Shown here piece after piece: positions 15,665 through 28,643 of a stretch of DNA of 64,000 bases. Each line of letters opens with the position of its first letter. Position 1 is the first letter of the stretch. The notes below the pieces were generated by a model. It saw only the letters and a program-made list of their open reading frames with translations. It searched no databases and had not been told where the DNA came from. The DNA comes from Vreelandella aquamarina (lineage in GTDB: Bacteria; Pseudomonadota; Gammaproteobacteria; Pseudomonadales; Halomonadaceae), in the NCBI RefSeq assembly GCF_900110265.1, contig NZ_FODB01000004.1, forward strand, positions 1-64,000, written 5' to 3'. The translations under genes and the position numbers were made by a program.

Positions 15665-16096
15665 ATGTCGTATGAAATCATGTTAAAGCGTATATATGCG
15701 CCGATAGAGGATCACGACGGCACGCGCGTGCTGGTTGATCGGGTACGTCCTAGCGGGCTGTTTCCCAATTTATTGGCACTGAATGAGTGGTATCCAGAGA
15801 TAGCGCCTGCCTCTCAATTATGCAGTCAGTATCGACAGAAAAAAATCAGTCAATCACTCTTTCTTGAGCGCTACAAGCGTGAGCTGAAGGCATGTCCTGA
15901 CAAGCTACTGCCTTTAATGAGATTCGCACGAGCGGGGCGGGTTACCCTACTAACCGCCGCTCGTGAAATTGAAGATTCCCACCTTCCAGTAATCAAAGAG
16001 CTGGTGCTATCAGCGCTCGAAGAGGAAGACGCCAGTGATCGTGAATTTTGCTCATCGCCCTGCCTGGCGCACACATTACCCACTTCTCAACGTTAG
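15665..16096 (+). CDS. Diverged DUF488 protein
   Basis: A 143-residue protein related to the YeaO-type DUF488 family: IMLKRIYAPIEDHDGTRVLVDRV, then LNEWYPEIAPASQL and FLERYKREL. The family hallmark LVDRLWPRG is altered here to LVDRVRPSG, and the C-terminus is about 25 residues longer than the second copy in this window (26034-26384), which keeps LVDGIWPRG. Function of DUF488 is unknown. No strong ribosome binding site is visible. It is convergent with a Yip1-family gene. Confidence 0.78.
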   Translation: MSYEIMLKRIYAPIEDHDGTRVLVDRVRPSGLFPNLLALNEWYPEIAPASQLCSQYRQKKISQSLFLERYKRELKACPDKLLPLMRFARAGRVTLLTAAREIEDSHLPVIKELVLSALEEEDASDREFCSSPCLAHTLPTSQR

Positions 16097-16169
16097 ACCG
16101 TTTGCTTCACGCGTCATCATTGGGCTTGACGATGAATGGGTTGGTGCCAGTGCGCCTAATATTCATGGC

Positions 16170-16736
16170 TTAATAAGCCCAGATAACAGCAAACAAAATA
16201 CCCCACCCCAGAGCACTGGCAGCCATGATTGTGTAAGTGGCTGAGATCGTAGCAACATCAAATTCTTGATGGGTACAGAGTGCTTGTAAGCCGTGGTAAA
16301 TCAAGCTGCAAGAGATGCCCAGCCCGCTAAGTATAACCACTACGTTGAAAAGTAAGCTGGGTACCAATAGTGCCAATGAAGCGACGAATAACGGTAGTGG
16401 TGCAAGTGTGGCAAGTAAATAGGCATCTTGATAGCTGATAGATAGCTCTTCAGTTCCATTGACTACAGCGTAGATTACCCAGCCAATAACGAAAAAACTC
16501 AATATCTCTGCTAGGAAAATAATTGTCGTGATAAAACGCCACTCTCGGTCAGCAAAGCCCGCCATAAATGCATCGCCGTAATGGGTGCCCGCATAATAGA
16601 GCATTACTGGCGGCAAGAGGGACATGGGTAACACCACCAGCCAAGCTAGTAAAGGAATGGAGGGGGAGGAAGCCTGTAGCTCTTTCCAGCCTTCACGATG
16701 GTTGAATGGTAATTTGAGAAAAGTGAGTGCTCTCAT
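16170..16736 (-). CDS. Yip1-family inner-membrane protein, copy A
   Basis: A 188-residue protein with five hydrophobic segments, a typical Yip1-domain layout. The start at 16736 follows AGGGGGTATCTGAA. It is a close paralogue of the gene at 26454-27020: both share LPMSLLPPV, YGDxF, FADRxWRFITTI, LAPLPL, LVPSLLFN and YHGLQALC, and both end in IWAY or VWAY. A TATCATA-type palindrome lies 40 bases upstream, between this gene and a divergent MarR regulator. Role unknown. Confidence 0.82.
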   Translation of the reverse strand: MRALTFLKLPFNHREGWKELQASSPSIPLLAWLVVLPMSLLPPVMLYYAGTHYGDAFMAGFADREWRFITTIIFLAEILSFFVIGWVIYAVVNGTEELSISYQDAYLLATLAPLPLFVASLALLVPSLLFNVVVILSGLGISCSLIYHGLQALCTHQEFDVATISATYTIMAASALGWGILFAVIWAY

Positions 16737-16775
16737 TTCAGATACCCCCTGCAGGTGTAATCTCAATGGTTATTT

Positions 16776-16792
16776 GTATCATAGTGTGATAT
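16776..16792. promoter_or_regulatory. Putative operator palindrome between Yip1 copy A and marR
   Basis: GTATCATA-G-TGTGATAT is an imperfect 17-bp palindrome, 40 bases upstream of the Yip1 start and 72 bases before the MarR start. It matches the perfect palindrome upstream of Yip1 copy B in sequence and position, and so is a good candidate site for the adjacent MarR protein. Confidence 0.6.
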
Positions 16793-16863
16793 TGTATTTT
16801 TCTAAAGCGCTCTAAATTGGCGAGTCAGCAATAGCCGAGTATGTGGTAAAGAGAATTGGAAAA

Positions 16864-17280
16864 ATGAATAACCCTCAGACACTTGATAAAAGCGACTTTG
16901 AGCGGCTGTCGCAATTTCGTTACCGGTTGCGTTGCTTTCTTCGCCATAGTGAAGATATCTGTCGCCGCTATGGGCTGACGCCCTTGCAGTATCAACTATT
17001 GCTACATCTTCGTGGTTTCCATGGAAGAGACTGGGCGACGGTGGGGGAGCTAGCGGAACGGCTTCAATCAAAACATCATGGGGTGGTGGCGCTAGTTGAT
17101 CGCTGTGAGCAGCTATCATTGGTTGTGCGGCGGCAAGGGCGTGAGGATCGCCGCCAAATAGAAGTGCATTTATTGGAAGAGGGCGTGAATCGGGTAACGC
17201 AAATCGCTGAAGCTCATCAACCTGAGTTGCGTCATTTGCAGGAAGAGACGCCATTTCCGGGTTGGCATAAGTCCACTTAA
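16864..17280 (+). CDS. MarR-family transcriptional regulator
   Basis: A 138-residue protein (start 16864; a GTG seven codons earlier is possible). The winged helix is clear: YGLTPLQYQLLLHLRGF, VGELAERLQSKHHGVVALVDRCEQLSLVVRR, and the wing RQGREDRRQIEVHL. MarR dimers bind short palindromes and respond to small ligands. It is divergent from the Yip1 gene and followed by a carboxymuconolactone-decarboxylase-like gene. Target regulation of both Yip1 copies is inferred from the shared palindrome. Confidence 0.88.
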   Translation: MNNPQTLDKSDFERLSQFRYRLRCFLRHSEDICRRYGLTPLQYQLLLHLRGFHGRDWATVGELAERLQSKHHGVVALVDRCEQLSLVVRRQGREDRRQIEVHLLEEGVNRVTQIAEAHQPELRHLQEETPFPGWHKST

Positions 17281-17439
17281 TGCAGAGCTTAAGACGTTGG
17301 ATATAGCCAATATACATCGAATGTCCTCATTAATAATGCTTGGTTCGATTGCTGTGTTTAGCTCTTAAGTGTGGTGTGTGGCATTTAGTTGCTGTACTTC
17401 TATACTGTGAACTTCAATTTATCGTTAAGGTATTGCACT

Positions 17440-17760
17440 ATGACAAAGCATGATTTGCCTTCTGGAGCTGGAGATGTCGCAAACCAGTATCCTGAGATAT
17501 GGGAAGCTTATGCCGCTTTGGGCAAAGCCTGTGCTAAAGCTGGGCCGCTTGATGAACGTAGCCGACGCTTGATAAAACTCTCGCTGGCCATAGGGGCACG
17601 CTCCGAAGGGGCCGTTCACTCCCATGTGCGTCGTGCCTTGGAGGAGGGAGTGAGTGCCGAGGAACTGAAACAAGTAGCCATGTTAGCGATTCCTACCACC
17701 GGATTTCCGACTGCTGTGGCGGCCTTAACCTGGATTGAGGACATCACGGATCCTGATTAA
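17440..17760 (+). CDS. Carboxymuconolactone decarboxylase (AhpD-like) family protein
   Basis: A 106-residue protein; start at 17440 behind TTAAGG. The CMD fold is recognisable: LDERSRRLIKLSLAIGARSEGAVHSHVRRALEEGVSAEEL and MLAIPTTGFPTAVAAL. In redox-active AhpD-like members the helix carries CxxC (EGCxxCH); here the equivalent reads EGAVHSH, with no Cys, so peroxidase-type thiol chemistry is unlikely. Possibly part of the marR unit. Substrate unknown. Confidence 0.85.
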   Translation: MTKHDLPSGAGDVANQYPEIWEAYAALGKACAKAGPLDERSRRLIKLSLAIGARSEGAVHSHVRRALEEGVSAEELKQVAMLAIPTTGFPTAVAALTWIEDITDPD

Positions 17761-17785
17761 GAGCGCTCTGAGGGCGCTCTTTTTA
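17759..17785 (+). terminator. Terminator after the CMD gene
   Basis: AGAGCGC and GCGCTCT pair around a seven-base loop and are followed by TTTTTATT, directly at the stop codon of the CMD gene. Confidence 0.85.
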
Positions 17786-17852
17786 TTCTAGAGGCACTGT
17801 CCGGATCCAATCGACGCGAACAGTGCCGTGACGCTACAGATGTGCCGACCGT

Positions 17853-19346
17853 TCAGTGCTTGGCACTCTGTAGTGCCTGCTCTTCGATATCTCTATCGAC
17901 CGAAGAAACATAGTACTCGTCGTCAAAAGCGCCCTCTGGCTCCTTGAGCCACACTAGGCAGATAACCCAACTGATGAAGGCGCCGGTCGCGATGATGTAG
18001 AAGAACTGCGACGGTGTGACAAACGTGAAGATGGTGAGGTAAACCACCGCGCCAACATTACCGTAGGCGCCGGCCATGCCCGAGATTTGCCCAGTGATGC
18101 GGCGCTTGATGGAGGGAATGATGCCGAAAGTCGCTCCCTCAGCCCCTTGTACGAAAATCGAGGTGCCGATGGTCACCGCAATGGCCAGAATGAGTGGCCA
18201 ACTCGAATTGAGCATGGCCATTAGCAAGAACCCAACGCTAATGCCAAACATGTAGCACAGCATCACAAAGCGCCGGTTACCCATGCGGTCGGAAACCATG
18301 CCGCCCATGGGGCGCGCCACCAGATTGACGAACGCGAATGACGCAGCGATCAGGCCGGCCGTAGCGGCATTCAGGCCCCAGGTCTCCTCAAAGAACATGG
18401 GCAGCATCGATACCACTGCGAGTTCAGCGCCGAAGTTGGCAAAGTAAGTACTGTTAAGCGCAGCCACACTGTTGAACGAGTACTTGTCATCCTCAGGCAC
18501 CCCCTTGCGCAGAATCGGCAGGTTGACCCGCAGGATCTGTATGATCTGATAAATAACGATCGCCACGATGGTGAGATAAGCGATGACCGCCCCGGTGATG
18601 GATAAATAGCCCATGTACTGGATGCGCCAGACCAGGATGGCGAGTACGCCGACCAGCGGGATCGTCCAGATGATCAGCTTGATCATATCGCCCCAGGAGC
18701 TCACTTCCATGGCGGCGGTCTTACGTGGTTTGCGGTGGGCCTGGGCATCTGGGCCATCAGTGATCGCGAACCAGTAGTAAACACCGTAAGCGGCCATAAC
18801 AAGGGCACTCTGCGCGATGGCCCAGCGCCATCCATCCGGGCCGCCATACATGCTCAGGGCGATAGTCGGCAGCGACATGGCCGCTACGGCGGAACCGAAG
18901 TTACCCCAGCCAGCGTAAAAGCCTTCGGCGAAGCCGATGTCCTTGGGCTTGAACCACAGCGCCGTCATGTGAATACCCACCACGAAGCTGGCACCAATCG
19001 AACTCAGTACTAAGCGCGCCACCAACAGCTGCGTCATGCTGTTACCGAAAGCAAACGCCAGTGCCGGTAGTGACATAGTTACCATAAGCACCGAGAACAC
19101 CCGTCGCGGGCCGAATCGATCCAGCGCCATGCCAACGATGATGCGCGCGGGAATGGTCAAGGCGACGTTGCAGATGGCGAATAGTTTGAGATCATCCGTG
19201 GTCAGCCAGTCGACGCTCTTGAGCATGCTCGACGCGAGCGGTGCCATGTTGAACCACACGTAAAAGGTAATAAAGAAAGCAATCCAGGTCAGGTGCAAGG
19301 CCCGGATTTCAGGGCTGCGAAACTTGAATACAGCGGAAACTTTCAT
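17853..19346 (-). CDS. narK: Nitrate/nitrite MFS transporter, NarK1 type
   Basis: A 497-residue protein with twelve hydrophobic segments. It has the NNP-family signatures FYAGWGNFGSAVAAMSLPTIAL and the second-half equivalent GAEGATFGIIPSIKRR-ITGQ-ISGMAGAYGNVGA. The N-terminal TWIAFFITFYVWFNMAPL matches the NarK1/NasA group, thought to be nitrate/proton symporters. It is the last gene of a narK2-usp-narK1 operon, 40 bases after the universal stress gene. It should import nitrate for NarGHI. Symport versus antiport is inferred from subgroup only. Confidence 0.92.
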   Translation of the reverse strand: MKVSAVFKFRSPEIRALHLTWIAFFITFYVWFNMAPLASSMLKSVDWLTTDDLKLFAICNVALTIPARIIVGMALDRFGPRRVFSVLMVTMSLPALAFAFGNSMTQLLVARLVLSSIGASFVVGIHMTALWFKPKDIGFAEGFYAGWGNFGSAVAAMSLPTIALSMYGGPDGWRWAIAQSALVMAAYGVYYWFAITDGPDAQAHRKPRKTAAMEVSSWGDMIKLIIWTIPLVGVLAILVWRIQYMGYLSITGAVIAYLTIVAIVIYQIIQILRVNLPILRKGVPEDDKYSFNSVAALNSTYFANFGAELAVVSMLPMFFEETWGLNAATAGLIAASFAFVNLVARPMGGMVSDRMGNRRFVMLCYMFGISVGFLLMAMLNSSWPLILAIAVTIGTSIFVQGAEGATFGIIPSIKRRITGQISGMAGAYGNVGAVVYLTIFTFVTPSQFFYIIATGAFISWVICLVWLKEPEGAFDDEYYVSSVDRDIEEQALQSAKH

Positions 19347-19386
19347 GGTCGTATCGTCCCGTGTCCCAAATGTGGTTAGAGGCTGC

Positions 19387-19845
19387 TTAAGGGCTGGGTA
19401 GGATCAACAAGGGACACTCGGCGCGTCGGGCCAGGAATGAGCTGACGCTGCCGAAAGTCATGTAGTCGAGTTCATCAACAAAATAAGTCAACGATTTGGC
19501 GATGATGCCGCCGTCCGGTTGATGGCTATGGCGAGCAATCACCAGTAGGTCTGGCGAGAGTTTGCGAGTGGCCTGAAGCAGCATCTTGCGCGCGTCTCCC
19601 TCGGCGAGAAGCTGCTCGGCCTGGAAGCCCTCGCCGATAGCGAATGCCACACCCTCTTGAAGGTGCTGCTTAACCTCATCGTGTTCCTGCTGAAAAAGCG
19701 CCTCGTTGTTATCGGTAGCGTCGAGTGGGTTCTCCACCACGCCAACCAGTACCAGCAGGGGTTGGTTACAGCGGAACATATTGACGACCTGAGCGAGTGC
19801 CAGCTTGGCGTTTCGCGAACCGTCATAGGCGATCATGATTTTCAT
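19387..19845 (-). CDS. Universal stress protein (UspA family)
   Basis: A 152-residue protein; start at 19845 behind GGGAGGACACC. It begins MKIMIAYDGSRNAKLALAQV, with the conserved Asp of USP domains, and ends VSSFLARRAECPLLIL. The ATP-binding G-x2-G-x9-G-S/T pattern is not obvious; the corresponding region reads DELDYMTFGSVSSFL. It sits between two nitrate transporter genes in one operon, suggesting expression under anaerobic nitrate conditions. Confidence 0.88.
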   Translation of the reverse strand: MKIMIAYDGSRNAKLALAQVVNMFRCNQPLLVLVGVVENPLDATDNNEALFQQEHDEVKQHLQEGVAFAIGEGFQAEQLLAEGDARKMLLQATRKLSPDLLVIARHSHQPDGGIIAKSLTYFVDELDYMTFGSVSSFLARRAECPLLILPSP

Positions 19846-19917
19846 GGTGTCCTCCCGCATTGGGGTAGGGGGTGAAGACCCGGAGCTTGGCTCCGGGCGT
19901 AAAGACGCAAGCCCTAT

Positions 19918-21510
19918 TTAGGGGTTCTTAACGTAGGCACCTTTGCGTAGGTAGAACCACCAGTTGATGACCAGACAGATGGCGTAGAAGACCGCAAAGC
20001 CGTACATGGCAAGCTCCGGTGTGCCGGCCTGGATTTGCTCGCCCATTACCCGCGGGGCGATGAAGGCGCCATAGGCCGCGACGGCTGAGGTCCAGCCAAG
20101 AACAGGGCCTTTCTGCTGCTGGTCGAAAATCACGCCGATGCTGCGGAAGGTAGAGCCGTTGCCGATACCACTGGCAGCGAATAACACGATGAAAAGCAAC
20201 AGGAATAGCCAAAAGAATTGATTAGGATCAGTGGTGTTATAGGCCTGCATCATTACGTAGCCAGTGGCGACAGAGGCGACCACCATGATCGCAGAGATTA
20301 TTTGGGTAACGATGGAGCCGCCCACTTTGTCGGAGATCCATCCGCCCAGCGGACGGATCAGAGCGCCCACGAAGGGGCCTATCCAGGCCCAGGTTAAAGC
20401 GCTGGGCGCCTCTGGGTTGGCCACGCGAATCAGCGTGCCATCGGCAGTGGCTTCCATCATATTGCCGAAGATGACGTTGATAGAGAGCGGCAGGGCCGCA
20501 GAGAAGCCGATAAAGGAGCCGAAGGTCAGAATATAGAGGATGGTCATTGACCAGGTGTGCTTATTGGAAAATATCGCGAATTGCTTCTGGATATTGGGCT
20601 TGATATCGCCAGGAATCAGGCGCAACAACACCAGGGTTAGAACAATGGTTAGCGGCAGGGCAATCCACATATTAAGCCAGCTGAGAGCCAACATGCCGAT
20701 AATCGCGGTCACCATGCCGACGCCGTAGAGGCCTAATATTTTGCTGAAAGCCGCCAGCGGCGAACCAGGGTTGGGCGTAATAGTGCGGAGATTGTTCATG
20801 CCGAACCAACCGGCGAACGCTAATGGGATCAGGAATACGAGCCAGATAAAGCCAGCATTCTGGATCCAGGTGTCGGTCCCTGCTTCGATCCGACCAATCA
20901 ACGTACCGCTAGCGCTTTGCAATTCCATTGGCGAACCGGCCATAGCGCCAAAAATGCCGACGGTCATTACCAGTGGGATGACAATCTGCATGGTAGTGAC
21001 GCCGAAATTACCAAGGCCTGCATTCATGCCCAGGGCGTAACCTTGCTGTTTGCTGGGATAAAAAGTGGAAATGTTGCTCATTGAACAAGCGAAGTTACCG
21101 CCACCGATACCGGAAAGTAGCGCCAACGCCTGGAATACCCAAAACGGCGTGCCTGGGTTCATCAAGGCGATACCAGTGCCGGCAGCGGGGATCATCAATA
21201 GCGCGGTGGTCAGGAAGATAGTGTTACGCCCGCCAGCGATGCGGATCATGAACGATGCTGGGATGCGCAGTGTGGCACCTGCTAGACCGGCAAGCGCTGT
21301 TAGTGAAAATAGCTGGTTAACCGTGAACGAAAAACCCAGGTTCTGCATCTGGGTGGTAATCATTCCCCACATCATCCAGACAGCGAATCCCATCAGCAGG
21401 CTGGGAATGGATATCCATAGGTTGCGGTTGGCAATGTGCTTGCCTTCCTGTTCCCAGAATTGGGCGTCTTCGACATTCCATTTCTCAATGTCGGCATTTC
21501 TCTTGCTCAT
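19918..21510 (-). CDS. narK: Nitrate/nitrite antiporter, NarK2 type
   Basis: A 530-residue protein; start at 21510 (MSKRNADIEKWNVEDAQFWE) after AGGGG. It has twelve membrane segments and the NarK nitrate signature GGGNFACSMSNISTFYPSKQ-QGYALGMNAGLGNFGV, close to E. coli NarK, with the second-half block GNGSTFRSIGVIF. This type exchanges periplasmic nitrate for cytoplasmic nitrite. It heads the narK2-usp-narK1 operon and is downstream of narXL on the same strand, with a hairpin and a NarL-like palindrome between. Confidence 0.94.
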   Translation of the reverse strand: MSKRNADIEKWNVEDAQFWEQEGKHIANRNLWISIPSLLMGFAVWMMWGMITTQMQNLGFSFTVNQLFSLTALAGLAGATLRIPASFMIRIAGGRNTIFLTTALLMIPAAGTGIALMNPGTPFWVFQALALLSGIGGGNFACSMSNISTFYPSKQQGYALGMNAGLGNFGVTTMQIVIPLVMTVGIFGAMAGSPMELQSASGTLIGRIEAGTDTWIQNAGFIWLVFLIPLAFAGWFGMNNLRTITPNPGSPLAAFSKILGLYGVGMVTAIIGMLALSWLNMWIALPLTIVLTLVLLRLIPGDIKPNIQKQFAIFSNKHTWSMTILYILTFGSFIGFSAALPLSINVIFGNMMEATADGTLIRVANPEAPSALTWAWIGPFVGALIRPLGGWISDKVGGSIVTQIISAIMVVASVATGYVMMQAYNTTDPNQFFWLFLLLFIVLFAASGIGNGSTFRSIGVIFDQQQKGPVLGWTSAVAAYGAFIAPRVMGEQIQAGTPELAMYGFAVFYAICLVINWWFYLRKGAYVKNP

Positions 21511-21606
21511 GGCGATTTCCCCTTGGCATCGAACCTTTCTGCATCTAGCAGTTAGAAAGCAAGATACGCTGGAGGAAGACATTGGGAAATGGGTGAAAAT
21601 GACATG

Positions 21607-21642
21607 AAAAACAGCGACATACCTCTTGAGAGGTAGTCGCTG
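21607..21642 (-). terminator. narXL terminator containing a NarL-like palindrome
   Basis: CAGCGAC (21612-21618) and GTCGCTG (21636-21642) close a long hairpin whose core, TACCTCT-TG-AGAGGTA (21620-21635), is perfectly symmetrical. On the minus strand five T follow, fitting a terminator for narXL. The core also matches the 7-2-7 NarL/NarP site (TACYNMT heptamers in inverted repeat), about 110 bases upstream of the narK2 start, so it may act as an operator too. Confidence 0.75.
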
Positions 21643-21748
21643 AAAAGCCTGGATTCGTTGATTTTAAAGAGAAAAAATCGACAGGGGGTAAAGGCGGGTC
21701 AGGGCAGAAGTACTCTGTGAGTCTTTGGAGGTAACCACACAGAATCGA

Positions 21749-22417
21749 CTAGTGATCGATACCTTCCTGGACTGCCCAGACGGCGGCTTCGACACGGGAC
21801 CGTAAGTTGAGCTTTTTGAGCAGATGCTTGACGTGAACCTTGACCGTGCCTTCGGTAATATCCAGCTTGCGCGCGATGAGCTTGTTGGAGAGTCCGCTAG
21901 CAAGCTGTTGTAGAATTTCGCGTTCACGCTGCGTCAGACTATGAATATCCGGAGTGGTGGGGGCATTGCGCTGATTACGCAGCGCTTCAGCGAGTAGGGC
22001 GGTTAGACTTTCGCTGATGACCATGCGTCCCAAAGCAGCTTGACGCAGCTGGCGCACCATGTCTTCAGGCTCCATATCCTTTAGCAGATAACCGTCGGCA
22101 CCGTTGCGTAGCGCCGCGACCACATCATCCTCATGGTCGGAAACAGTGAACATCACCACACGGCCGCTATAGTTGGCTTCCCGTAGGCGGCGCAAGGCTT
22201 CTAAACCATTGACGCCTGGCATGTTTAAATCCAGTAAAACCAAGTCAGGCTCCAGTTTGAGAGCCAGTGCAATGCCCTCTTCAGGGTCGCCCGTCTCGCC
22301 AACCAGTTCAAGATCGTCCTCTAGTTCAAGCAACTGGGCGACGCCACGCCTCAGTAGCGGGTGGTCATCAATAATCATTAGAGTGGCGGGTGTATCGTTG
22401 GCAGTGGTCAGCGTCAT
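21749..22417 (-). CDS. narL: Nitrate/nitrite response regulator NarL
   Basis: A 222-residue protein. The receiver has the acidic pair in [10 protein letters not shown], phospho-acceptor Asp in [14 protein letters not shown] and the Lys in [11 protein letters not shown]. The C-terminal LuxR-type helix-turn-helix reads [20 protein letters not shown] and [15 protein letters not shown]. The start overlaps the narX stop as TAATG, implying translational coupling. It should activate nar genes when NarX senses nitrate. Confidence 0.95.
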
Positions 22418-24315
22418 TAAGAAGCCCCTGTACCTAAGTGAGAGTCTGAGGCAGCCGTAACAGGCTGCTGCTGAATTAAGCGAGCGGTCAACGGGGTGAA
22501 GACTATCTCAATGCTGGCTCCCCCTGCGGGGCGATTGGTGATACTTAGCTCCCCGTTCAGGGTAGTGGTTCGGTCGCGAATAATCACCAAACCGTAGTGC
22601 ATAGGCGGCGAGCTATCGTCTTCCAGGCCGATACCATCATCCTCAATACGCACTAACAGGCGAGCATCGGCGAAATGCACAGTGACCCCAGCCCAGTGGG
22701 CTTGGGCGTGCTTGTGGGTATTAGCCAGCGCCTCGCGAATGATCTGCAGCACGTGAATTTCTTCATTGGGATTAAGTAGGTAAGGCGGCACATCGTAGTC
22801 AAGCTCGACCGTTATCTCCATGCGCTGGCTAAACTCTTCGATGGTTTGGCGTAAGGCAAATTGCAGCCCAGGCCCCTCTAGTTTGAGCCGGAAGGTAGTA
22901 AGCAGTTCACGCAGTTGACGATAGGCGCTGTTTAAACCGGTACGCAGCTCGTCGAATACCGCAGACTGCATCTCTCGAGAGGCTTCTTTTTGCTGCATAC
23001 GTTCGAGTCGCGCCACCTGCATCTTTAGATAAGAGAGCGATTGGGCTAGCGAGTCGTGAAGTTCGCGGGCAATGATGGTCCGCTCGTTGATCAGCGTGAC
23101 GTGCTGCTGCTCCTCGATACGCCGCTGCAGGTACACCGCCGTGGCCAACTGGTCGGCTAACATGGTGAGCAACCGACGGGTGCTATCGTTGAGCCGCTCC
23201 TGGTGATACCACACTTCCAGGGTGCCAAGCAGCGTGTCGCCGACGCTGATAGGTAGCAGTAAACATTGGGACTGGTTATTGGACACCATCTCCAAGGGGC
23301 GGGGATCAATCAGGCAGGCGTGGCACTCCTGGTCACGGCAATACTCTGGCCGGGTACGTGAGTGGGTTTCCAAAACCGGCATTTCCCGTTGGTCGAAAGG
23401 ATCGTTGAGGGAAAGCCGAATCGGCCCGATATCCAGCAGGTTTTCCAGTTCGCGCAGCATAGGTGCTGCGCTAGAGCAAAGGTCGTTACCGCCGCCATAC
23501 AGTGAACGGCTGGCATCATGCATTACTCGCAGCGCCTGATTGCTGCGCTCAAGCTCCTGTTTCTTGCGCGATATCTTGTCTTCCAATGCGGCGTAGCTGG
23601 TTGCCAGCTCGGCAGACATCTTATTAAAGGTGTGGCCCAGCAAAGCCAGCTCATCACTGCCGCGTAGCTCTGAGCGTGGCTTGAAATTACGTTGCGCCGC
23701 CTCGCGGGCAAGCACCATCAGCTGGCGCAGCGGCACTACCAGGTTATGGCGAACATCGTAAAGGGCTATCGAAACCACGATAGCGATCAGCACCAGAAAA
23801 AGCAGTTGCATCATCCCCAGTAGCCGCACCTTAGCCTCGGTGCTCTGCTCCAGATAGGTCACTAGCACTTCAATGTCACTGACCATCTCAACGATCATCA
23901 TTTCTAGCGTAGCGAGGTCTAGCGCCGTGGCAGCGGCCGGAGCCTCTAGTGCCGGGCGAAGCGAGTGTTGCCAGTAGCTCTGAAGTTTTTCCAGTTGACG
24001 GCGGCGCTCATGACGATCATCAATGGGGATCGTTTGTTGAAGCGTTGTGCCATACAAGCGTTGATCGAAGCTCGAAATCAGTCCTTCGAGCTGTTCTGCG
24101 CTTGTCTCCTCTGGAGCATACTCCAGGCGTTGCAAGGCTCCCATAATCTGATAGGCATTCATGCGTAATGAGCCAGCGACATTAATCGCGGCAGCATCGC
24201 CACGGCTGCTGTTAGACATTGTCATGGTCAGGGTGATACTGATGAGCGCCATCCCGCTAATGGCAAGCAAGGACGCAATGATGCGAGCAACCAGGGAGCG
24301 CTGAAGTAATTTCAT
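22417..24315 (-). CDS. narX: Nitrate/nitrite sensor histidine kinase NarX
   Basis: A 632-residue protein. A first membrane helix (about 12-32) leads to the periplasmic sensor with the P-box ([15 protein letters not shown]). The second helix is at about 167-187 and a HAMP linker follows. The central module has a Cys cluster ([15 protein letters not shown]). The HisKA_3 dimerisation box has [18 protein letters not shown] with the phospho-His, and the ATPase has [20 protein letters not shown] and [10 protein letters not shown]. All are as in E. coli NarX/NarQ. The gene is upstream of and coupled to narL. Confidence 0.94.
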
Positions 24316-24453
24316 GGCATTTCCGATAGCGCGAAAGAGGTAAGCGAGTGTGGCACTGTCTGCATTTCGATACGAGGGCTATTCCTTTGGGGTTAGCCAG
24401 CCTACCTCCGATGCCTTTTTGACCTAAGCCCAGTATTTACCGACAATTCTGGC

Positions 24454-25062
24454 ATGTCTTCCGATGTCTTTATACCCTCGCTGGGAAACGCCATGCCATC
24501 ATCTGTGCCGCCTCCCACGTTGGAGACATCAATAAAGCCAGTGAATGGTTATCAGTTGCTGGTAGCCATGCTGCTAATGCCGCTAGCAAGCGCTTTAGCG
24601 GTGGCTAGCTGGACACTTTATGCCCTGCTTGCAAAGCAGCCTGTCTATGTGTTGGTACCATTGATGAGTGGTGTACTGTTGGCGTGGCCGGCCTGGTATA
24701 TCGCCAAACTGGGCGACACCTGCCGCTTGATGCAATGGCTATTACTGGGGCTAGCGTTGGCGCTGGGAGGATTTGGGATGGCTAGCCAGCCGTGGGATTT
24801 TTTGTTGGTAGGGGCTGGGCTTGGGCTGGGAGGAGCGGTGATTACCACCGGCATCGCCCACGCCAAAGGCTGGATGCCTGGCCGTTGGGTGTGTCTTTGT
24901 ATCGCCCTTTGTGTGGCTTTAGCGGCAGGTGTCGGGCTTTCCCTGCGAATAGCACCGCTGGTCGTCCAAGCCTATGGTTGGCGCGCGGCGCCACTTAGCC
25001 TGTTGATCCCTCTGTTCATGGTAATGCTGCTGCTGTGGCTTTTCGTAGAGTCACCCGAGTAA
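24454..25062 (+). CDS. Six-helix membrane protein resembling half of an MFS transporter
   Basis: A 202-residue protein with about six hydrophobic segments after a polar 35-residue N-terminus. The middle, LVGAGLGLGGAVITTGIAHA, then KGWMPGRWV, resembles the loop 4-5 region of NNP/MFS proteins, and the last two helices end YGWRAAPLSLLIPLFMV, as at the end of an MFS N-half. No C-terminal half follows. It is divergent from narX. It could be a decayed transporter or a true small protein. The start is uncertain (24454 or 24493). Identity not established. Confidence 0.6.
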   Translation: MSSDVFIPSLGNAMPSSVPPPTLETSIKPVNGYQLLVAMLLMPLASALAVASWTLYALLAKQPVYVLVPLMSGVLLAWPAWYIAKLGDTCRLMQWLLLGLALALGGFGMASQPWDFLLVGAGLGLGGAVITTGIAHAKGWMPGRWVCLCIALCVALAAGVGLSLRIAPLVVQAYGWRAAPLSLLIPLFMVMLLLWLFVESPE

Positions 25063-25146
25063 CGCCGTCTATGAGTCTCACCTGTTCATTCTTAACTACT
25101 CTCTCTCACCTTCTGATTCTTAACTACTAGCGATAAGGCTCACTTT

Positions 25147-25569
25147 ATGACCACAGTTGTTATGACCACCGATTTTATGAATATAGCGACGTTTGCCGAT
25201 TTACTGCAGGAAGCACGTAAACAACCTAATCCCCAGCGCCTGCTGTTTGTGTTCGTTCGCGCAGAGCTGCCCGATTTCCCCGATGCTGAACAGCGCCGTC
25301 GCTTCGAACAGGGTGAAGGGGGTGTGTTGGTGCCGGTGGTCTGCGTAGATAAGTCGACGGAGGAATTGACCAGTATGGCGGCGTTGGTCGAGGAGTCACG
25401 CCGCACCGAGATCGAATGGGATCTAGTTTTCACCGCTGCCATGGACGACCCACAAGATGACGCCGAGGTTGAACGCCAGCTTCAGCGTATGATGGAGTCG
25501 CTGCAAATGGGTAATATCACCACCTATCTTGCCTTCGATCATCACGGCAATGCGCTTAACGTCGGCTAG
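25147..25569 (+). CDS. Conserved soluble protein of unknown function
   Basis: A 140-residue acidic protein: LADLLQEARKQPNPQRLLFVFVRAELPDF, then VLVPVVCVDKSTEELTSMAAL and WDLVFTAAMDD. Relatives in halomonads and pseudomonads are, as I recall, sometimes labelled ribonucleotide reductase subunit alpha, which does not fit its size. It lies 85 bases after the half-MFS gene and 11 bases before the SirB2-like gene, so these three are probably one operon beside narX. Function unknown. Confidence 0.65.
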   Translation: MTTVVMTTDFMNIATFADLLQEARKQPNPQRLLFVFVRAELPDFPDAEQRRRFEQGEGGVLVPVVCVDKSTEELTSMAALVEESRRTEIEWDLVFTAAMDDPQDDAEVERQLQRMMESLQMGNITTYLAFDHHGNALNVG

Positions 25570-25580
25570 GGACGGTTACC

Positions 25581-25967
25581 ATGGAGCACTATTTCCTCAT
25601 CAAGCATTTGCACATGACGGCCGCTGCGCTGAGCATCACGTTATTCGTAGTGCGCGCCTGGTGGTCGGTGCAGGAAAGCCCGCGACTCAACGCCCGTTGG
25701 GTCAAGGTATTGCCTCATCTTATTGATACGGCTCTGTTGGGGCTGGGGGTGACTTTGATGGTATTGCTTTCCGTATGGCCCTGGCAGCTTCCCTGGCTTG
25801 GCGCCAAGCTATTAGCACTGCTGGCCTATATCGGTATTGGTACCATTGCGATTAAACGTGGGGCCACGCCAGCGGTGCGAGCCCTAGCCGCGGTAGTGGC
25901 AGTGTCCATCTTTGCCTATATGGTGGGGGCCGCTGTTCATCACAGCCCTCTCTCCTGGCTGGCCTGA
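25581..25967 (+). CDS. SirB2-family membrane protein
   Basis: A 128-residue protein behind AGGGACGG, with four hydrophobic segments. It begins EHYFLIKHLHMTAAALSITLFVVRAWWS, including the conserved His residues of the SirB2 family, and ends AYMVGAAVHHSPLSW. SirB2 proteins are small inner-membrane proteins of unclear role; the paired His suggests possible cofactor binding, which is inference. Confidence 0.82.
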   Translation: MEHYFLIKHLHMTAAALSITLFVVRAWWSVQESPRLNARWVKVLPHLIDTALLGLGVTLMVLLSVWPWQLPWLGAKLLALLAYIGIGTIAIKRGATPAVRALAAVVAVSIFAYMVGAAVHHSPLSWLA

Positions 25968-26033
25968 GGGGTGATTGCCTTCAGCACTTACTCCATACTT
26001 TAGAGCAAGTTGATGTGCCATTGATTGAGACGA

Positions 26034-26384
26034 TTATTTTAGCATTTTCAAGTACTGGCGCAGCACTTCGGCATTGTTATGTCGCTCTTCTTTAGAGGCA
26101 AATACTAAAGTGACACGCTCTTTCCTGGCACGTTGTGCAAGGCCACGAAGGGCCTCGCGATAGGGAGTTAACTCTTTGAGATAGCGTCGGCGGAAGTCAT
26201 TCCAGCCGAGTGAGCCGTTATGAAATGCTTTGCGAAGTTCGCTGCTCGGTGCGACTTCCTTACGCCACTCATCAATTTTGGCTGCTTCCTTGGATACCCC
26301 ACGCGGCCAGATTCCGTCGACTAAGACACGATAACCATCCTTATTGTGAGGAGAGTCGTAGGCACGTTTCAATTCGATACTCAT
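26034..26384 (-). CDS. DUF488 protein (YeaO type)
   Basis: A 116-residue protein behind GAGGTAACG. It follows the family closely: MSIELKRAYDSPHNKDGYRVLVDGIWPRGVSKEAA, IDEWRKEVAPSSELRKAF, FRRRYLKEL, and VTLVFASKEERHNNAEVL. It is the better preserved of two DUF488 copies in the window. It is 69 bases downstream of Yip1 copy B on the same strand, so the two are probably co-transcribed. Function unknown. Confidence 0.88.
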   Translation of the reverse strand: MSIELKRAYDSPHNKDGYRVLVDGIWPRGVSKEAAKIDEWRKEVAPSSELRKAFHNGSLGWNDFRRRYLKELTPYREALRGLAQRARKERVTLVFASKEERHNNAEVLRQYLKMLK

Positions 26385-26453
26385 CGTTACCTCGTTTGCA
26401 CTGGGTTGCCCTATAAACTTAGCGAGTGATTAGCTCCCATCACTACCTAAACT

Positions 26454-27020
26454 TTAGTAAGCCCAAACAATAGCCATCAACAAGCCCCATGCCAGCAACC
26501 CTGCGGCCATAACGGTGTAAGTAACAGACATCGTTGTTACGTCATTCGTTGAGCGCTCACATAGAGCCTGAAGGCCGTGATAGACCAAGCTACAAGAGGT
26601 ACCCAATGCCACCATAACAACCATGGCATTGAAGAGCAGGCTGGGTACCAGCAGAGCGATCGTAGCAAACCATAATGGCAGTGGTGCTAAGGCCGCCACC
26701 AGATAAGCGTCGTGGTAGCTCATTGAGAGTTCGCGATTGCTATTGACTACTGCATGAATCAGCCAGCCCATCAAGAAGAAGGTAAGCAGCTCGGCCAAGA
26801 ACAAGATAGTAGTGATGAAGCGCCACTGGCGGTCAGCGAAGCCCGGAGCGAAGCTATCTCCGTAGTGGGTAGCCGCGTAATAGAGCAGTACAGGAGGTAG
26901 CAACGACATGGGCAGCACGACGCACCAGGCCAGAGTGGCGATTGAAGGGTGGCGTTGTTGGATGTGTTTCCATCTCTTCAAGTGGGAAAAGGGTAGCTGA
27001 ATAATACTGAGGAGAGTCAT
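26454..27020 (-). CDS. Yip1-family inner-membrane protein, copy B
   Basis: A 188-residue protein with five hydrophobic segments and the same layout and many identical blocks as copy A at 16170-16736 (LPMSLLPPV, WRFITTI, LAPLPL, LVPSLLFN, YHGLQALC). Its promoter carries the perfect palindrome at 27064-27080. It leads a probable two-gene operon with the DUF488 gene. Confidence 0.82.
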   Translation of the reverse strand: MTLLSIIQLPFSHLKRWKHIQQRHPSIATLAWCVVLPMSLLPPVLLYYAATHYGDSFAPGFADRQWRFITTILFLAELLTFFLMGWLIHAVVNSNRELSMSYHDAYLVAALAPLPLWFATIALLVPSLLFNAMVVMVALGTSCSLVYHGLQALCERSTNDVTTMSVTYTVMAAGLLAWGLLMAIVWAY

Positions 27021-27063
27021 TATCTAGCCTCGAGGTTAGTGGAGGTCGTGGTTTATTTTTTAA

Positions 27064-27080
27064 ATATCATACTATGATAT
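27064..27080. promoter_or_regulatory. Perfect palindrome upstream of Yip1 copy B
   Basis: ATATCATA-C-TATGATAT is a perfect 17-bp palindrome 44 bases upstream of the Yip1 start, the same place and nearly the same sequence as at 16776-16792. It is probably an operator for a dimeric regulator such as the MarR protein at 16864. Confidence 0.65.
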
Positions 27081-27341
27081 TATGTTTAAGATTTAGGACT
27101 TAATGAAGGTTCTGTCAAGCGAGCCTGGCTCTCATATGGCTAAAGGAGCACAGCAAACTGGGTAGCTCTGCAAACGTCACTAGCCGGAATTAAGTTATCT
27201 ACTGAAAGAGTCCGGTCTTATTGGATCGTCGAAAATGACCTGAAGGATGGGTTTTTCTTAACGTGCAGGGTGGTTTGGTTTGGTTTGGTTTGGCTTGCTG
27301 ACGCTTCTAGCTTCTTAACTGCTTCATTGAGCTAATACAAG
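27081..27341. other. Gene-free stretch between Yip1 copy B and hmp
   Basis: About 260 bases. It contains the (TTTGG)n tract at 27271-27293 but no credible reading frame. The stretch 27201-27260 does not match any element I recognise. Confidence 0.5.
27271..27293 (+). repeat. Pentanucleotide repeat TGG(TTTGG)4
   Basis: Four uninterrupted TTTGG units after a TGG give five GG pairs spaced by TTT. On this strand that fits a two-layer G-quadruplex. It lies in non-coding DNA downstream of hmp. Confidence 0.85.
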
Positions 27342-27375: not shown

Positions 27376-28548
27376 TCAGGTTGCGTTGAGGGGGCGCGAG
27401 GGGCCAAAGTGCTCAAAGTGTCGGCGATCCTCATCAACACCCAGCTCCGACAGGGCTCTGTTAATCGCTGTCATGAATCCTTGAGGTCCGACGAAATAGC
27501 AGCGTGTCTTAAGGTCTGACAGGTAGTGAGCTAATAAGCTGCGGTCGATACGGCCAATATGTTCGGCTTCGTTACCGCGCTCATGAATACGGACAGCTTT
27601 AAGATGTTGAGGATACTCGCTCTTCAGCTCCTCTAATTCGCCTTTAAAGGCCTGGTGGTCGGCATCCAGGGCAGCGTGTAGATAGATGACTTGCCGCCCA
27701 AGAGATAAGGCATGGCGCGCCATGGGGAGCAAGGGAGTTTGACCAACGCCGCCGCTGGCAAGCAGTAGAGGCTCATCACCTTCAATCAGCGTCAGATCAC
27801 CTGCTGGCGGTAACAGCTCCAAGATATCGCCTGGTTTTAAAACATCGTGGAAATGACAGCTGACTTGGCCCTGTTCTTCGCGCTTGATCGAAATACGGTA
27901 GCTTCGACCGTTCGGTGTGTCCGAAAGGCTGTAATGCCGATAGACCAATTCGTCGTTAATAGTCAAACGTACGCCGATATACTGCCCGGGCTCGTGGTTA
28001 GCCACGCGGCCCCCATCTTCGGGCTCAAGGATAAACGAGCGAATTAAAGTACTTTCCTGCTGGGTACTGGCAATCTTGAAACGGCGTGTGCCGCGCCATC
28101 CGCCCGGGCGCTGCTCAAACTCACGATAGCGCTGGTCTTCGAGGTCAATTAACAGGGCGGCAAGCTCGTTATATAGAGCGCCCCATGCATCGGCGATTTC
28201 CGGGGTGACAGCTTCACCCAGCACTTCGCCAATCGCTGCCAGCAGGCATTCGCCAACAATAGGGTACTGCTCGGGAAGAATGCCTAGAGAGACGTGTTTG
28301 CTGACCACAACATCCAGAGTAGCCCGCGCCTGAGCTGGATTACTGCGTAGTTGCACATAGGCCAACACGGCGTTGGCCAGGGCACGGGGCTGACCACCGC
28401 TTTGCTGATGAACCTCATTAAAGAGGGGCTTGACCTCTGGGTAACGGGTAAACATCAGCGGATAGAAGCGCTGTGTAATCGCATTCAGGTGTTCGGCCAC
28501 GACGGGAGCTGTCGCGTTGATCAGCTTTTCCTGCTCATGTGTTAGCAC
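27376..28548 (-). CDS. hmp: Flavohaemoglobin, nitric oxide dioxygenase
   Basis: A 390-residue protein. The globin domain (1-140) has the proximal His in VSKHVSLGI and distal-side residues in RFYPLMF. The FAD domain has RHYSLSDTPNGRSYRISIKR, and the NAD domain has LLASGGVGQTPLLPMARHAL and CYFVGPQGFM. It oxidises NO to nitrate using O2 and NADPH in the cytoplasm. It is divergent from nnrS, and a strong NsrR-like box sits 21 bases upstream of the start, so NO-responsive control is likely. Confidence 0.96.
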   Translation of the reverse strand: MLTHEQEKLINATAPVVAEHLNAITQRFYPLMFTRYPEVKPLFNEVHQQSGGQPRALANAVLAYVQLRSNPAQARATLDVVVSKHVSLGILPEQYPIVGECLLAAIGEVLGEAVTPEIADAWGALYNELAALLIDLEDQRYREFEQRPGGWRGTRRFKIASTQQESTLIRSFILEPEDGGRVANHEPGQYIGVRLTINDELVYRHYSLSDTPNGRSYRISIKREEQGQVSCHFHDVLKPGDILELLPPAGDLTLIEGDEPLLLASGGVGQTPLLPMARHALSLGRQVIYLHAALDADHQAFKGELEELKSEYPQHLKAVRIHERGNEAEHIGRIDRSLLAHYLSDLKTRCYFVGPQGFMTAINRALSELGVDEDRRHFEHFGPSRPLNAT

Positions 28549-28620: not shown

Positions 28621-28643
28621 AAGATGTATTTTTGATGCATGTC
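28621..28643. promoter_or_regulatory. Second NsrR-like box, on the nnrS side
   Basis: The left half AAGATGTATTT is an exact consensus half-site; the right half TGATGCATGTC is poorer. It lies 64 bases before nnrS, so the divergent hmp/nnrS promoter may have one box per gene. Confidence 0.55.

Follow-up and report, generated by a model that had tools for sequence, protein, structure and literature searches.

Divergent pairs of a MarR-type repressor and its target gene represent a general arrangement, with a palindrome in between and probable autoregulation. This work concerns such a pair in the first 64,000 nucleotides (nt) of contig NZ_FODB01000004.1 of Vreelandella aquamarina (assembly GCF_900110265.1), a stretch referred to below as the window. 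Here, a MarR gene faces a gene for a Yip1-domain membrane protein across the palindrome TATCA-N5-TGATA, and a second Yip1 gene carries the same palindrome elsewhere in the window. The regulon architecture is of a known kind; the pair differs from the usual ones in its target, a Yip1-domain membrane protein, in an apparent second target in trans in this genus, and in its tie to nitrate respiration.

Several described regulators come close to this system. OsbR of Chromobacterium violaceum, a MarR-type protein tied to nitrate respiration like the window MarR, represses the nar genes, binds its own promoter and that of narX, and loses DNA binding on oxidation (PMC8567585). Unlike the present MarR, it governs a global regulon, and the main text of that paper makes no mention of Yip1. 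Its cysteines, Cys55 and Cys133, are 78 residues apart (PMC8567585), whereas those of the present family in three other Chromobacterium species are 48 apart (40 and 88 in the translations); because of this difference in spacing, OsbR is not taken to be the same protein, although the search did not extend to C. violaceum itself. Some cysteine pair with a spacing of 78 does exist at five other loci. CioR of C. violaceum is likewise a MarR-type repressor, and its target operon protects against nitric oxide (NO); it differs in being predicted to be of the GbsR type and in standing in an operon with cytochrome bd that cyanide induces (PMC11837568). S-nitrosylated MgrA of Staphylococcus aureus (PMC10120478), a MarR-family protein (PMC8567585), provides a precedent for tuning by NO on a cysteine, but its regulon is different, and loss of the modification weakens its promoter binding (PMC10120478).

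A comparative study of nitrogen-oxide regulons names HcpR, DNR, NnrR, NarXL/QP, NorR and NsrR (PMC1274295). These likewise use small operators at nitrate and NO genes, but the regulators belong to other protein families with differing consensus sites, and neither "MarR" nor "Yip1" occurs in the main text. Among the listed matches in openly licensed literature, no title or abstract start described a MarR-Yip1 pair, nor did the available passages of PMC8014003 and PMC5918138. The MarR-Yip1 regulon is widely conserved, extends in this genus to a second operator in trans, and is apparently undescribed. We propose, with a probability of roughly 0.58, that it is a one-regulator, two-operator regulon responding to nitrite- or NO-derived reactive nitrogen in nitrate respiration.

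The Regulator, the Two Yip1 Genes and the Palindrome

A sequence-only reading of the window had placed a Yip1 gene on either side of the nitrate transport and sensing genes, each with a palindrome upstream (imperfect at 16776, perfect at 27064) and with a divergent MarR gene at the first. Family searches and pattern scans confirmed all of these elements:

16170–16736, minus strand: yip1A, the nar-linked copy (PF04893 match)
26454–27020, minus strand: yip1B (PF04893 match); in relatives it often adjoins norCB or hmp
16864–17280, plus strand: gene of the MarR-family regulator (PF12802), with ATG at 16864 and an in-frame GTG at 16843
16776–16792, no strand: operator A, core TATCATAGTGTGATA at 16777–16791, between yip1A and marR
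27064–27080, no strand: operator B, perfect palindrome ATATCATACTATGATAT, upstream of yip1B, no marR adjoining

The two Yip1 proteins score 51 and 59.3 bits against PF04893 (cut-off 28.6; E 2e-13 and 5.8e-16), and the MarR protein scores 50.5 bits against PF12802 (cut-off 27; E 2.4e-13), while the PHROGs and NCBIfam profiles gave no match naming either. Over 138 amino acids, the MarR protein is 100% identical to its counterpart in Vreelandella titanicae BH1, and further Vreelandella and Halomonas strains have close relatives of it. Its structure model is a normal winged helix (mean predicted local distance difference test score 88.7), with fold matches to PecS, MftR and YusO in the PDB.

The 17-mer ends 39 nt before the yip1A start and 43 nt before the yip1B start. 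It matches ATATCATANTATGATAT with two mismatches at operator A and none at operator B. With up to three mismatches allowed, the window yields no match beyond these two (0.10 expected), and none of 100 shuffles reached two; the looser TATCAYNNNRTGATA, with up to one mismatch, found the same two sites (0.18 expected; two of 100 shuffles reached two). In the organism's own genome, TATCATANTATGATA with up to two mismatches occurred in three places, both operators included, and exact TATCAYNNNRTGATA at the operators only; the reversed control matched once in each scan. Since reversed controls also match, rarity alone represents modest evidence, and it is place and conservation that count.

Conservation of the Operator within the Genus

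Genome comparison brings out the operator, its conservation, its loss together with MarR, and its association with nitrate respiration. One set of 82 genus genomes was searched for MarR, Yip1, narH and norB. Yip1 was found in 29 and MarR also in 29 (counting the broken gene of G050 and the fragment of G019); both occurred in 26 genomes, each one without the other in three, and neither in 50 (p 7e-15, a guide only, like all p values within the genus, as the genomes are related).

All 43 genus Yip1 copies were scored for the site, one locus (L039, of another gene order, 42% identical, no site) being excluded. The site is present with at most one mismatch in 40 of them. Where a MarR gene adjoins Yip1, this holds for 25/25 copies (18 exact). 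Where the only MarR gene lies elsewhere in the genome, it holds for 15/15 (13 exact), window yip1B among them. In the three Yip1 genomes in which no MarR was detected at E 1e-15 (G051, G058, G105), no copy has the site, the best matches having 3, 4 and 3 mismatches; as two of these copies are sisters on the Yip1 tree, they represent two losses rather than three. Random 250-nt windows of genus loci matched at the same stringency in 1.7% of cases, real sites included. A site that is kept away from the sole regulator gene and missing without that gene fits the prediction of control in trans by this MarR. In 8 of 14 two-copy genomes (G000, G008, G016, G027, G032, G045, G099, G113), the yip1 promoters carry the only exact matches genome-wide.

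The two decaying marR genes occur in genomes in which the genus search found no Yip1. The gene in G050 (L138:548–978) is interrupted, with a pattern match beyond its 3' side and not at a promoter; the fragment in G019 (L139:6385–6594) adjoins a narK cluster.

Distribution beyond the Genus

A scan of named genomes returned 219 relatives of the MarR protein, and the counts given here refer to the best 80 of these 219. They comprise 49 loci of Halomonadaceae and 31 others from Gamma- and Betaproteobacteria, whose hosts include Marinobacter, Thiohalomonas, Sedimenticola, Aquisalimonas, Thiobacillus, Sulfuricella, Sterolibacterium, Methylobacillus, Hydrogenophaga and Chromobacterium. The genus set already contains about 14 of the 80, so that the two sets of counts overlap. 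The family is not common, as only 7 of 390 genomes in an order-wide sample match the MarR model, three of them in the genus of the window.

A Yip1 gene is present at 75 of the 80 loci, divergent and next door in 74. One of the five loci lacking it (L166) is apparently G024:C16, and G024 carries Yip1 on another contig. Upstream of the 75 Yip1 genes, the site occurs exactly in 64 and in a slightly looser form in 72. With narrow intergenic borders, the exact pattern was counted 57 times in 7,924 bp between genes vs. zero times in 871,562 bp of flanks, with the reversed control absent from both (L226, of another arrangement, was excluded). The flanks and the organism's own genome agree with the expectation of the sequence-only reading that the palindrome is not common at unrelated genes.

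Cysteine C81 of the MarR protein is kept in 80/80 relatives and C33 in 77/80. Close relatives were compared in an alignment of 21 of 29 rows (near-identical and fragment rows excluded, L134 re-cut by coordinates), and named loci in one holding 79 of the 80 plus the window (L163, a fragment from a wrong start, excluded).

The Link with Nitrate Respiration

Within the genus, narH occurs in 27/29 Yip1 genomes vs. 18/53 others (p 1e-7), and norB in 14/29 vs. 3/53 (p 1e-5). More widely, narH, which encodes a respiratory nitrate reductase component, was found in 41 of 42 tested MarR genomes vs. 62 of 369 in a class-wide sample (Fisher p 6e-27; 9e-18 for the 26 of 27 non-Halomonadaceae), p values that are a guide only given relatedness and a background that is class-wide and not family-matched. 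The test covered the 27 non-Halomonadaceae (of 31) that carry Yip1, together with 15 of the 16 Halomonadaceae whose locus showed no nitrogen-oxide gene; 37 of the 42 were chosen without such a gene, and five have one nearby. NorB was present in 34 of the 42.

Local association is looser. A nar, nor, hmp, nnrS or nsrR gene lies in the stretch read at 33/49 Halomonadaceae loci and 6/31 others, and a gene-by-gene look at 15 loci found most among unrelated genes. The genome-wide link with nitrate respiration is much stronger than the local gene link. The association with nitrogen-oxide genes elsewhere, expected from the sequence-only reading, is borne out both by these NarH counts and by the nar- and norCB-linked loci of the genus. 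By the NarH link, nitrate, nitrite and NO cannot be told apart from one another or from anaerobic life in general.

Two Apparent Paralogues of Yip1

The products of yip1A and yip1B are 65% identical over 188 amino acids. On the Yip1 tree, copy A falls in a clade of 22 rows (Shimodaira–Hasegawa-like approximate likelihood-ratio support 96), most of whose loci adjoin narK or narXL; copy B belongs to a group of 12 (support 90), whose union with the Yip1 genes of other Halomonas has weak support (82). The tree was built by a quick method with no bootstrap, excluding identical rows and 14 named loci taken as already-present genomes; the Yip1 alignment held 26 of 44 rows. In relatives, copy A is mostly nar-linked and copy B often norCB-linked, being divergent from norCB in six genus loci (L053, L055, L056, L058, L131, L140). 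The window genome has no norB at E 1e-100, and its copy B adjoins hmp and nnrS. Five more genomes of the genus (G009, G048, G101, G112, G115) have a single MarR-site-Yip1 unit, its neighbours being norCB, an nnrS-like gene and a gene for a P450.

The two copies look like old paralogues and not a duplicated module. Simple duplication is not supported because yip1A and yip1B group separately on the tree and the two DUF488 genes beside them are just 34% identical over 110 amino acids; a recent duplication is rejected on the same grounds together with the 65% Yip1 identity. Of the "small duplicated regulon" seen in the sequence-only reading, the regulon joining both Yip1 genes to one MarR is supported, and the duplication is not.

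Yip1 proteins of family PF04893 have about five membrane helices. The model of the yip1B product contains five long helical stretches, putatively membrane-spanning, and P42, E77, P115, G149 and L181 are invariant over 77 rows. A comparison of the model with PDB folds gave no useful solved match (best E 0.7) and thereby no lead to a function.

A Possible Mechanism

Promoter-like elements were found at both genes:

27090–27118, minus strand: possible yip1B promoter, TTGACA at 27118–27113, 17 nt, TAAATC at 27095–27090, read from the sequence
16778–16806, minus strand: promoter-like pair in front of yip1A; its second hexamer, TATGAT, falls within operator A

The pair at yip1A has 9 of 12 hexamer matches, and shuffles average 0.5 such pairs. 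The possible yip1B promoter would put operator B at about +4 to +20; a stricter promoter scan listed none at this place. In the 57 relatives that carry an exact site, TTGACN precedes the operator by 40 nt in 13 cases and by 30 nt in nine. The operator probably lies over or behind the transcription start, which makes repression the likely mode.

In the proposed scheme, MarR would bind TATCA-N5-TGATA as a dimer, at operators placed over or just behind the transcription start of each yip1 gene, and would repress yip1A and, acting in trans, yip1B, as well as probably the marR gene itself. In cells respiring nitrate, reactive nitrogen derived from nitrite or NO, or a product of it, would release MarR, perhaps via the two nearly invariant cysteines C33 and C81, with NO or nitrite as the presumed signal. 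The cell would then make the five-helix Yip1 protein beside nitrate genes (copy A) or NO-handling genes (copy B), where a protective membrane role may be supposed. MarR binding, the sign of control, the trigger, the role of the cysteines and the membrane function of Yip1 are all steps that we infer.

Alternative Explanations

A number of observations weigh against this scheme. The site pattern was itself derived from genus copies, and its reversed control matches in 9/82 genus genomes, that of the window included. The other six two-copy genomes (G005, G033, G043, G049, G056, G111) have further exact matches or an inexact yip1 site, and the exact pattern occurs somewhere in 15/53 genus genomes without MarR. 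G002 has MarR and the site yet no Yip1; its divergent gene (L128:7035–9065) looks, by reading the sequence, like a flavin adenine dinucleotide-dependent oxidoreductase with a Rieske-like end, near a NorR-like gene. On the physiological side, G051 has Yip1 with neither narH nor norB, and one of the 42 tested genomes lacks NarH. Eight lack NorB, which disfavours denitrification as a requirement, and three of the 34 NorB matches are only 33–41% identical. No recognised local nitrogen-oxide gene was seen at 16/49 Halomonadaceae and 25/31 other loci. Cysteine C24, invariant in 21 close relatives, is kept in only 62/80; a sensor made of all three cysteines was dropped for this reason.

The regulon could also be the same but answer another MarR signal met by nitrate respirers, such as peroxide, oxygen shortage or a small ligand of aromatic or lipid nature, with yip1 as a general membrane-stress gene. 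MarR proteins commonly bind small ligands or get oxidised, and organic hydroperoxide oxidation abolishes DNA binding by the nar-repressing OsbR (PMC8567585); many MarR-Yip1 loci lie among unrelated genes, and marR is followed by a P450 gene at 16/80 loci and by a PF02627 gene at others. The NarH distribution and the repeated adjacency of norCB, hmp, nnrS or nar in varied orders favour nitrogen oxides over these signals, anaerobic life as such remaining compatible, and we regard a different signal as possible but rather unlikely. As for the direction of control, MarR might bind the site and activate yip1, or play both roles, as proposed for OsbR (PMC8567585). This we consider improbable, as the site probably lies over or behind the transcription start, where a bound protein normally blocks.

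The palindrome might, finally, belong to NsrR, DNR/FNR or NarL, all of which plausibly act in the region, an NsrR-type site being present at 28623–28641, with the MarR gene as a coincidental neighbour. Scans with gATGyAT-N5-ATrCATc (NsrR) and TTGATnnnnATCAA (DNR) list neither operator, while NarL sites were outside the scan. Yip1 copies in genomes lacking this MarR also lack the site, and every copy whose MarR gene lies elsewhere keeps it, so another owner has scarcely any credibility.

Neighbouring Genes and Sites

Also present in the window are narGH, narXL, narK-type genes, hmp, nnrS and an nsrR-like gene. For narK, narX, narL, narG, narH, hmp and nnrS, the names come from inspection of the sequences and from relatives, not from a family search; narK, narX, narL and narG lie where the earlier reading had put them. 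Against the NsrR model, the nsrR-like gene reaches 146.7 bits, short of the cut-off of 182. Features around the core are as follows:

15665–16096, plus strand: DUF488-N3i gene beside copy A, a neighbour and not core (library family match)
26034–26384, minus strand: DUF488-N3i gene beside copy B, a neighbour and not core (library family match)
17437–17760, plus strand: carboxymuconolactone-decarboxylase-like gene (PF02627, E 6e-16), possible second gene behind marR
27376–28548, minus strand: hmp-like flavohaemoglobin gene, named by reading the sequence, upstream of yip1B here
27368–27343: terminator-like hairpin behind hmp, which closes hmp off from yip1B
28623–28641, plus strand: NsrR-type site, a different operator, in the gap from hmp to nnrS, deviating from the published consensus at one position

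Given the hairpin behind hmp, yip1B probably has its own promoter. The NsrR-type site (0.71 window matches with up to two mismatches are expected by chance) makes the Yip1 operator a separate switch in the same neighbourhood. At 14/80 named loci, hmp lies directly downstream of yip1 on the same strand, with 106–123 nt between match ends.

A DUF488 gene does stand beside each Yip1 copy of the window, DUF488-N3i being the best family match of both, tail to tail with copy A and downstream and co-directional with copy B, and DUF488 adjoins Yip1 in many genus copies, in two arrangements. Its membership of the module, also claimed earlier, is not borne out: it occurs at 11/80 named MarR loci and is absent from five norCB-linked genus loci (L068, L070, L133–L135), which, with the low identity of the two window genes, rules it out as a core part.

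The PF02627 gene stands behind marR in several relatives too. A P450 gene recurs behind marR, as at the 16 named loci, or divergent from yip1B across the operator (L133:5012–6199, L060:7296–8453, L136:4207–5343); at L136, a near-consensus site also lies just upstream of it. The P450 gene may be a further target of the regulon. Its identification as a P450nor-type NO reductase was unsupported, the closest solved chains being CYP125 and P450-terp and P450nor being absent by name among the best 60 of 224 solved-chain matches at E 1e-20. In a betaproteobacterium (L178:6733–7146), a small protein behind marR is hemerythrin-like by eye and, by clustering, occurs at three non-Halomonas loci.

Implications

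Through this regulon, a widespread family of membrane proteins acquires a regulator, an operator and a physiological context. Tentatively, and at somewhat less than even chances, it may represent a dedicated reactive-nitrogen switch of nitrate-respiring Gamma- and Betaproteobacteria, apart from NsrR, NorR, DNR and NarXL, in which a cysteine-bearing MarR would control almost only Yip1, and Yip1 would be an unrecognised membrane component of nitrite or NO tolerance. If the trigger is indeed NO or nitrite, the nitrogen-oxide regulators listed in PMC1274295 would gain a MarR member.

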